Part shown: piece by piece, positions 6,730-11,709 of the stretch
Numbering within the stretch: the stretch's first letter is position 1
Layout of the letters: every line of letters starts with the position of its first letter
DNA from: a virus
Virus record (IMG/VR): IMGVR_UViG_3300044974_000160
Location: 1 to 20,004 of that record
Length of the DNA stretch: 20,004 bases
Direction: 5' to 3' (one strand)
Notes under the pieces: model-generated
The model's database searches: none
Told to the model about the DNA's origin: nothing
What the model saw: only the letters and a program-made list of their open reading frames with translations
Made by a program: the position numbers and the translations under genes

Positions 6730-8499
6730 TTAATTTGTTCCTGGGTATCTGCCGTTATTAGGCAAGTCATAAGTGCGAGTGTTAGCCGTAGCAAAGTCTT
6801 TAGCAATATCTCTCAAAGGCATTCCTGCTCTGATTGCTTTTGATACTGAGATTGAATCAGATGACTCTAAACCATTGTCTGCAATAAATCGGCCCCTCTC
6901 TCTCTTTCTAAAATAGACTTTTCTCTCCCAGTAGTGCTTACAGTTAACCGATCCTTTGTATAACCACACGCTATAACTTGAGCCGTTATGGCCCATGTTT
7001 GGATTAAGCTGATTAGTATCTGCACTCATCCCTGTTAAATCTTCATATCTATAAACATAGCCAGCATTAGCAGCGCTTACCATTTGCCTGCAGAATTTTC
7101 TACTATTGCCACTTAGATTCTTTGAATAAGAATAACGAATCTTATACAATCCGCTATCCATTTCAGATGGTCTATCAGGATCAGAATAACTTCTAACTGA
7201 GGTAAGATTAACAGGCTCAGCTTCGATTAATTCCCACTCCTCTTCATCTACTATCTCGCCCTTATCTTCTAAGAATTCACACCACCAATTCTCATCCTCA
7301 TCTGTGAAGATTGGAGGCTTTTCTTGTGGCTCTAAATTAATCTTTTTTTTTTCCTCAGATAATTGAGTTGTTGCAGATTGTGCAACAGTTGGAGCAGTGA
7401 TTTCCTCACCGAAAATATCATTAGACTCAATATAAATATCAGCCACAATGCCCATACCCTTAAATATCTCTTCAAAGCTATCTGTTATAATTTTTTGATA
7501 TGGCTCAATAATGTTCTTATTAAAGATGCGGTAAGCCTGTTTCATTTCATCAGCGTTGCTGCCTAATCCTCCTGAGTCTCTAATACCAAATAATAGAGGA
7601 GACGTTACGCGGTGAGCTGTTAAAATATTCTCTCTTGACTGCACGCTTAACTCTTGCCATTGCTTATCCGCTTGAGTCATATCTACAACGTCTAATCGAG
7701 GCATTCTATCAGCGCTCTCATTAAAGGTAAAGATTACCTTACCCGCTTTTTTAGCACCTACCATAGTCTCCCAATTTCTACGGATAGCCATTTGCTCCTC
7801 AGGATCAGGAATACCGTTATTCATGTGCAGCATGTATGAAGGATTCATGCCATTAGCTAAGAAAGCTCTATAAAATTCACTGATATCTCTTGTGATTTCT
7901 ATGTAATTAACTGCGCTATAGTAATCAGGCTTAGGATAGTAAGCGCTGCCTGGTGTCATTATCCCCACAAATAGCACTTGAGAAGGCTCATCTGCTTTTG
8001 AAGTTGGATTATACATAGGTATAAATACCGGTATATTTTTCTTTTTGCGAGTATCATTCCAATCTTTAGAATAATAAATGCCAGGTATAACATCTTCATC
8101 ATTAGCCACAGCCAAGCGACAATTCTCATAAGGCAAATGATTAATCTTAGCTACAGTAGTTCTATCTACGCTCCAAATCACTTCTAAATAAAAGCCACCT
8201 TGCATCTTTGCATCTAAGGTAATAGGCCTTCTAATGCTATTTAATTTAAGTCTATCTATCTCACGCTGAGCTGCAGGATTATTACTCTTAATCTCTTTCC
8301 CTGCTATCATAAACGCTATGCTCATGGTAAGAGCAGAATGCACCGGAGAGCTATAGTATAAATCTATTAAATAATTAGGGAAGGAGTTAGCCTCACCTAA
8401 TGTTACCCATCCCTTGGGAGTTTCTTTCTCGTTAGCCTCTTGTGGCATTGCTGCGCCAAGATTAACTAACATTGGTGCTGCGTGTGTTATCTTATCCAT
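6730..8499 (-). CDS. phage portal protein with an extra C-terminal domain, 589 aa
   Basis: Residues about 30-365 have portal features. They include a start region with NSFPNYLIDLYYSSPVHSAL, a wing/clip beta-rich part with GIYYSKDWNDT, and the stem/crown helices ending with SPLLFGIRDSGGLGSNADEM then AYRIFNKNIIEPYQKIITD. The portal ring forms the DNA entry channel of the capsid and docks terminase. Residues 366-450 are an acidic, Pro/Glu-rich linker. Residues 450-589 form a further domain with RKFCRQMV, YRYEDLTGMSADTNQL and VNCKHYWERKVYF (C470, C520, H522). The usual portal length is about 400-500, so this is a fusion. An A10 run codes for the linker. It overlaps the previous gene by 8 nt. Confidence 0.85.
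   Translation of the reverse strand: MDKITHAAPMLVNLGAAMPQEANEKETPKGWVTLGEANSFPNYLIDLYYSSPVHSALTMSIAFMIAGKEIKSNNPAAQREIDRLKLNSIRRPITLDAKMQGGFYLEVIWSVDRTTVAKINHLPYENCRLAVANDEDVIPGIYYSKDWNDTRKKKNIPVFIPMYNPTSKADEPSQVLFVGIMTPGSAYYPKPDYYSAVNYIEITRDISEFYRAFLANGMNPSYMLHMNNGIPDPEEQMAIRRNWETMVGAKKAGKVIFTFNESADRMPRLDVVDMTQADKQWQELSVQSRENILTAHRVTSPLLFGIRDSGGLGSNADEMKQAYRIFNKNIIEPYQKIITDSFEEIFKGMGIVADIYIESNDIFGEEITAPTVAQSATTQLSEEKKKINLEPQEKPPIFTDEDENWWCEFLEDKGEIVDEEEWELIEAEPVNLTSVRSYSDPDRPSEMDSGLYKIRYSYSKNLSGNSRKFCRQMVSAANAGYVYRYEDLTGMSADTNQLNPNMGHNGSSYSVWLYKGSVNCKHYWERKVYFRKRERGRFIADNGLESSDSISVSKAIRAGMPLRDIAKDFATANTRTYDLPNNGRYPGTN
7343..7352 (-). other. A10 slippery run in the portal linker
   Basis: Ten consecutive A on the coding strand encode the end of E-E-K-K-K (residues 383-386). 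Frame calculation: loss of one A gives E-E-K-K-R-L-I-stop, and gain of one A gives E-E-K-K-K-D-stop. Either slip therefore ends the protein at about residue 387-389, just after the portal core and before the C-terminal domain. A runs of nine or more are known sites of RNA polymerase slippage in bacteria. I saw no equally long homopolymer inside another gene of the window. Confidence 0.6.
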
Positions 8500-11112: not shown

Positions 11113-11709
11113 TTACAAATTCATTTCAAGCTGCTCAGCTAATTCAGCTAATAGCTTCTCTAAGTCTTTCTCGCTTACATCAGTTTCACTCATTGGAGCA
11201 AACCATCCCTCTATTGAGAATCCTTTAACCTCGCCATTCTTTACAGCTTGCCAAGTTTTATCATCATCTACTTTTACCCCTATCATCCATGTGCCCTCAG
11301 GAAGTTCAAAGCCATAATTCATACTCTTATCATGTGCTCCTGTAGTAACCCAAGATTCAACAACAGTTAAGTTGTTTACAGGCATCTCATGCTGGATAGT
11401 ATGATTGTGGTGCATGTTTCTTTTTAGAAATTCCTGAGCAGTTTGCTCTATAGTCTCTTTAGAATATGTGATAAAATACTTTTCGTTATTACCATCATAT
11501 CTAACTATAGGCTGATTAGGAATTAAGGCAGGGCCATACAGCATGCGCTTCTCTCCATCCTCTACGCGAGCTAGTAACAAGTTAGCTTTAGACAGTGCTA
11601 CAAAGTCTACCATTATAGCAGGCTCAGATACAAGGCTTACAGCGTAAACCCCCATGTTATCCTCCTCCTCACCTAAGCCGTATTCTATTAATTTCAATTT
11701 ATCATTCAT
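11113..11709 (-). CDS. prohead maturation protease, XkdF-like, 198 aa
   Basis: Opens with an acidic segment, then VYAVSLVSEPAIMVDFVALS, which is typical of XkdF/S78-type prohead proteases. Key stretches are RYDGNNEKYFITYSKETIEQ, RNMHHNHTIQH (H100, H101, H103), VESWVTTG, then TWMIGVKVDD and a Ser-containing GEVKGFSIEGWF (S165). In the family the His cluster and this Ser are the catalytic pair. The enzyme cleaves scaffold and capsid ends in the procapsid, and its place just upstream of scaffold and capsid fits. The start is ATG 11709-11707; its leader contains the 16-bp direct repeat. Length is normal for the family. Confidence 0.85.
   Translation of the reverse strand: MNDKLKLIEYGLGEEEDNMGVYAVSLVSEPAIMVDFVALSKANLLLARVEDGEKRMLYGPALIPNQPIVRYDGNNEKYFITYSKETIEQTAQEFLKRNMHHNHTIQHEMPVNNLTVVESWVTTGAHDKSMNYGFELPEGTWMIGVKVDDDKTWQAVKNGEVKGFSIEGWFAPMSETDVSEKDLEKLLAELAEQLEMNL

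Follow-up and report, generated by a model that had tools for sequence, protein, structure and literature searches.

A run of ten adenines (A10) in a phage portal gene is probably a programmed reading-frame switch, at which slippage of the host RNA polymerase would lead to short and long isoforms of the portal or, in related phages, of a head protease. The gene lies in a 20-kb virus sequence from IMG/VR (20,004 nucleotides), called the window here. The sequences themselves show the run, which is conserved in three reading phases, stops that soon close the shifted frames, and a conserved module that becomes readable only when one A is added. The portal features of the window are the following.

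6730..8499, minus strand: portal protein gene, 589 aa, consisting of core, linker and C-terminal accessory domain (Pfam, PHROG, Foldseek)
7306..7416, minus strand: linker, portal residues 362-398, predicted to be disordered (AlphaFold2 pLDDT <50); it holds the run and is the insertion point of modules
7343..7352, minus strand: A10 run, proposed slippage site, codons 383-386, phase 1, conserved in relatives
7337..7339, minus strand: TAA stop of the n+1 frame (A11, or -1 ribosomal), closing a predicted 387-aa portal; same place in 65/65 distinct contexts of the close relatives (clade 1)
7332..7334, minus strand: TAG stop of the n-1 frame (A9), closing a predicted 388-aa portal; same place in 65/65 distinct clade-1 contexts
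6733..7302, minus strand: C-terminal accessory domain, residues about 400-589, predicted for the long isoform only (relatives with and without the run; Foldseek)

The portal gene and its close relatives

The product of the gene matched the Pfam family Phage_portal (PF04860) with E=5.1e-10 and 39.5 bits, just exceeding the curated cut-off of 39.1, and it matched phrog_33693 over residues 27-586 (E=5.9e-72). Its core resembled solved portals in the PDB (Foldseek, best E=2e-9), and the portal-family match stopped at residue 344-349. AlphaFold2 models were of low confidence (mean pLDDT 57 for the full portal and 53 for the C-terminal part) and were used for the linker and as a mere lead for the C-terminal domain. 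A comparison of the window with Rfam gave no match.

The A10 occupies coding bases 1148-1157 of the portal gene, in the codons GAG-GAA-AAA-AAA-AAG followed by ATT, and it is the only A/T run of at least eight nucleotides in the 20-kb window. The original prediction had placed ten A of the coding strand at 7343-7352, in a linker between the portal core and an extra C-terminal domain, with shifted frames ending in R-L-I after loss of one A and in D after gain of one. The coordinates were exact (7352..7343, minus strand), residues 362-398 were disordered in the low-confidence AlphaFold2 model, and recomputation gave the same two ends. The n+1 frame reads ...EEKKKD* (387 aa, 43.7 kDa) and the n-1 frame ...EEKKRLI* (388 aa, 43.9 kDa); the full-length portal has 589 aa and 67.0 kDa. 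A slippage site is expected to be an A/T run of at least nine nucleotides inside a coding region and to give a defined alternative product from the shifted frames. The portal A10 is such a run, and defined products followed from the early stops in the portal gene and from a HAD-like module in the protease genes described below.

Taken as a single sequence the run is not improbable, because the protein reads EKKK at this place: 27% of synonymous codon shuffles of the portal gene also gave a run of at least ten. A chance origin was therefore not rejected by the shuffles; it was rejected by conservation across relatives, from which, and not from the window sequence alone, A10 takes its significance. 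A protein search with the window portal provided 80 loci at 84-94% identity (clade 1), of which 79 were informative, one contig stopping short of the linker. Exactly A10 in the same phase was present in all 79. The n+1 frame ended in K-D-stop (K-V-stop in three of them); the n-1 frame closed with R-L-I-stop, in some cases changed by one residue. Stop distances in both shifted frames were identical in each of the 65 distinct contexts, although modules of ~78 aa and/or ~110 aa had entered the linker. The former was inserted before the run, the latter after it, or both were present, resulting in proteins of about 590, 670, 700 and 780 aa.

The conservation concerned nucleotides. On the gene tree of 67 distinct clade-1 genes the run codons showed no third-position change, while the other Lys, Glu and Gln columns showed a median of 7 and only 3/58 of them showed none. 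The first codon of the run underwent approximately 13 Glu/Gln swaps (GAA<->CAA) and never lost its third-base A. GAA and CAA made up only 43% and 64%, respectively, of their codon pairs in clade 1, and AAA only 48% of the Lys codons, so that a Lys-codon bias was rejected as the cause of the conservation in this clade. This rejection is weaker in the more distant clade 2 described below, where AAA reached 70% and 11/59 other columns were also unchanged. The bases preceding the run were not conserved in clade 1. The alignment of homologues that had been suggested as a check thus found the A run kept at the nucleotide level while nearby codons drifted, and a search for AAG codons breaking the run in close relatives detected none. 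Comparative genomics in this way supports the prediction that one gene may give both a core and an extended portal.

Distant portals and the length of the run

A second set of portals (clade 2) was drawn by protein search alone with the portal of locus L088, which is 43% identical to the window portal. Exactly A10 was found in 79/79 other members of this set (57-65% identical to L088). Their run is read as TTA-AAA-AAA-AAA-GTA, in phase 2, whereas the window clade reads it in phase 1, and the flanks of A10 are wholly different from those in clade 1. The shifted frames again closed early: 4-6 codons sufficed to reach a stop in the n-1 frame and 5-15 in the n+1 frame. A third set of 80 genes was drawn by the C-terminal domain alone, and 77/80 of them contained A10 or A11 in three combinations of phase and length (38 with A10 in phase 2, 34 with A11 in phase 1 and 5 with A10 in phase 1); the three portal sets overlap in part and are dominated by single metagenome contigs with many near copies, and their counts are not numbers of independent events. 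The remaining three genes were L585, fused without a run, one on a cut-off contig, and L564, in which A10 is present together with a separate frame break further down.

In a tree of portal cores the run-bearing portals formed one clade (100/100). The tree requires one gain of the run and one change of phase, with L088 (phase 1) basal in clade 2, and outgroup portals with the same C-terminal domain had no run. Since the phase changed while the length stayed, the constraint acts on the run length (10-11 A) and not on the codons. The run length was conserved among homologues, as described for slippage sites in PMC1088944; such conservation has been proposed as a sign of purposeful slippage (PMC1088944, PMC4256274, PMC5009743). 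A sublineage of portals (many of L511-L561, as well as L568-L571, L575 and L577) carries A11 and remains in frame, from which a tolerated run length of 10-11 follows.

Counted within the ORFs of every locus that the protein searches retrieved, A runs fell from 1799 of six through 602 of seven, 88 of eight and 25 of nine, rose to 153 of ten, and ended with two of eleven, so that the decay was broken only at ten. Nearly all A10 runs in long ORFs were in genes for portals or XkdF-type proteases. The sequence A10GATTAATCTAA was also found at position 7572 of L085 (minus strand), within an unrelated ORF of 424 aa that is acidic and contains repeats. It may mark a third switch-bearing gene or have arisen by chance.

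Homopolymers as long as this one may be hypermutable, as PMC1088944 notes, and the run might then be a tract of phase variation at the DNA level, where genomic length changes between particles would switch the long form on and off. This explanation is hardly credible given that the roughly 160 portal contigs from clades 1 and 2 included none with a frame-breaking run length, and that the A11 sublineage is in frame. Frame breaks between portal core and C-terminal domain were observed near the run in two loci, L564 (about 2589-2640) and L572 (2753-2763). A slip at the run could rejoin the frames of L572 but not those of L564, and the breaks are assembly errors or real variants.

Among isolated phages the C-terminal domain was found only in the Nonlabens phages P12024S/L, whose portal, also of the phrog_33693 type, has the same core and C-terminal domain (about 30% identity over 95% of the length). 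It differs in that the linker lacks the A run and one fused product is predicted. The P12024S clade and L585 both have this domain fused without a run, which indicates that not every such portal needs two isoforms. Prophage homologues in genomes were found on three contigs, none of them informative.

Head proteases with in-frame and hidden modules

The window encodes one further gene that bears on the switch.

11113..11709, minus strand: XkdF-type head protease of 198 aa that lacks both a C-terminal module and an A run (Pfam PF14550, E=9.9e-22)

Relatives of this protease elsewhere bear the same A10 switch. A scan of IMG/VR for A10GAYTARTYTAR retrieved portals and XkdF-type head proteases, and a 20-nt stretch, A10-GAYTAATTTA, was common to the two kinds of gene. 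Two protein searches with module-less protease cores as queries revealed three states. In the first state the protease lacked a module and also lacked a run at the corresponding position. In the second, A10 was followed by an in-frame module of the ESYTDYP type, with both shifted frames closed; this module is phrog_2859-like and belongs to the same family as the 110-aa portal module. In the third, A10 was followed by an immediate stop and the module was readable only with one added A. The third state was found in 11 loci with a HAD-like module, where the zero frame stops after 4-6 codons and the default protease of about 198 aa would become a fused protein of about 297 aa. It was also found in L266 (phase 0) and L270 (phase 2), where an ESYTDYP-type module needs A11. 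A switch in a protease gene with the module one added A out of frame gives the proposal stronger support than the original prediction had.

Differences between copies of the hidden HAD-like module fell mostly at third positions of the hidden frame, and pairwise dN/dS was 0.07-0.53; by this measure the hidden module is under purifying selection. The same module starts directly at its own in-frame ATG, without a run, in 7 other loci, and it stands in frame behind A10 in L596. The module is called HAD-like because of a motif in its sequence and a weak match to a nucleotidase (phrog_8630, E=5.6e-4). The module of ~95 aa is hidden behind A10 in L586-L594 (including L474) and L602, copies that standard gene calling would miss, and has its own in-frame ATG in L595, L597-L601 and L603.

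The shared 20-nt stretch, with modules inserted before or after it, would also be expected if the run were a recombination joint for swaps of C-terminal modules between portal and protease genes and no second product were made. We consider this improbable. A10 stayed in clade 2 despite fully different flanks, both shifted frames had early stops in nearly all cases, and the modules of the 11 HAD loci, L266 and L270 are start-less and out of frame. A pure joint predicts that hidden modules decay, and purifying selection on the HAD-like module counts against it.

In loci holding both genes the run was on the portal in 86, on the protease in 2 and on neither in 29, and never on both. Some more distant proteases had the module in frame without a run, which suggests that the switch can be lost. 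The proteases of L275 and L280 share the same in-frame A11, and that of L275 is shorter by about 70 aa of the module, either by a module deletion or by an assembly collapse.

Proposed slippage mechanism, precedents and accessory domains

Bacterial RNA polymerases slip on A runs of at least nine (PMC1088944), and single-base insertions grow exponentially with run length (PMC5574713). We propose that the host RNA polymerase slips on A10 and that some transcripts thereby gain or lose an A. In the window phage, unslipped mRNA would be translated into the 589-aa portal and slipped mRNA into a portal of 387 or 388 aa ending just past the core, and one gene would supply both short and long portal subunits. 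In related phages, A10 or A11 would act between the XkdF-type protease and its C-terminal module, the default product being long in some of these phages and short in others; phages with the HAD-like module would be reversed, unslipped mRNA giving the short protease and slipped mRNA the long one.

The same two isoforms could be made by the ribosome, through -1 frameshifting at A_AAA_AAG or A_AAA_AAA or through sliding on poly(A). Every run contains one of these heptamers in frame, which could give the n+1 products, and each of the out-of-frame modules is encoded in the -1 (n+1) frame; ribosomes have been shown to slide on poly(A) in E. coli extracts, robustly at A11 (PMC4363877). In the same extract, however, the sliding product was slight with A9 or A10 (PMC4363877). 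Seven A are enough for a heptamer, yet at least ten were kept, and the third base outlasted the Glu/Gln swaps in the first codon. The phase changed at constant length. As a result the best heptamer, A_AAA_AAG, is read in frame in clade 1 but not in clade 2, which has only A_AAA_AAA in frame. The bases before the run were not conserved either. Folding of nested (pseudoknot-free) structures found no conserved downstream stem-loop, the drawn structures varying among relatives. Random positions gave a mean folding z of about -0.15 (sd about 1.1); the two clade-1 groups gave -1.0 and -0.9, and clade 2 gave -0.3. We therefore regard a purely ribosomal origin of the isoforms as unlikely. It is most likely the polymerase that slips, because a length beyond seven A was kept, the run is independent of phase and there is no conserved downstream structure; polymerase slippage and ribosomal frameshifting could also act together.

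Transcriptional slippage is established for Thermus thermophilus dnaX with A9 (PMC1088944), for Shigella type III genes and for Citrobacter tssM (PMC4256274, PMC5009743). These cases (dnaX; Shigella spa13, spa33, mxiA and mxiE; Citrobacter rodentium tssM with A11) resemble the portal in having a homopolymer in the coding region and a truncated or extended protein. They differ in being cellular or plasmid genes with proof from RNA and protein, while the evidence for the phage portal and protease genes is comparative. In further contrast to them, one element here serves two unrelated genes, and either form can be the default. A -1 ribosomal frameshift of the dnaX type could use the A_AAA_AAG that the window gene has in frame, and its product would be the 387-aa portal; the out-of-frame heptamer of clade 2, the lack of a conserved stimulatory structure and the conservation of three surplus A distinguish our case from that type.

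A core and an extended form of a structural protein, as predicted here, are also known for T7/T3 gp10B, for Ig-like domains, for the Listeria phages A118, A500 and PSA and for Lactobacillus phage A2, and there, too, it makes little difference whether the extension is reached in frame or by a frameshift (PMC5009743). All of these have been described as frameshifting by the ribosome, mostly in the genes of major capsid or tail proteins, whereas the element studied here is an A run of 10-11 nt in portal or protease genes, and none of the matches obtained for the added domains was to an Ig-like family. The literature searched, which covered few subscription papers, contained no case of transcriptional slippage in a phage or a phage head gene.

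If the slippage site is real, many environmental phages use two isoforms, in a fixed proportion, to build their portals or prohead proteases, and programmed transcriptional slippage extends to head genes of tailed phages. Portals are usually regarded as twelve identical chains from one product. Their C-termini generally face the head interior, and as the proteases also act there, the dose of accessory domain in the capsid is a natural guess for what is regulated. Mixed rings of twelve in which only some subunits are extended, a ratio between the isoforms and a role in loading accessory domains into the head may follow from such a switch. Tentatively, the run may be a portable poly(A) slippage cassette that sets the fraction of portal or protease subunits carrying an accessory domain on the inner side, with exchangeable cargo, a HAD-like enzyme included, dosed into the capsid in a large group of uncultured tailed phages, probably of Bacteroidota; we found no precedent for this use of RNA polymerase slippage. 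A stretch of 10-11 A at a domain junction, with one frame open and two closed, would also be a signature for hidden C-terminal domains missed by gene callers.

Foldseek searches of BFVD with the low-confidence model linked the C-terminal domain to parts of XkdF-type proteins, a portal and a HAD-like protein (E down to 7.6e-11). Such links fit one pool of exchangeable modules in uncultured phages. A MuF-like minor head domain had been suggested by motif resemblance and was not supported by Pfam, by a sequence search of the PDB or by Foldseek. Neither the C-terminal domain nor the modules matched an Ig-like family. The 78-aa module (NGAQIASALEIVAAVG...FLVQFLQLPIDVATAMF) lies just before the A run in L042, L048, L055 and others, at residues about 380-455, and would belong to both portal isoforms; it had no Pfam or PHROG match. 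The phrog_2859-like module, of roughly 100 aa with the motif ...GTPVGKARANQLA...WLAWGGDAG, was observed in L037, L044 and L072, in L101 and L429, and in HGTV-1 and HRTV-28. Module contexts in Roseobacter phages were rejected as a parallel, the module being at the opposite end of the protein. In phages of bacteria and of archaea, the phrog_2859-like module is joined to portals, head proteases and other head proteins.
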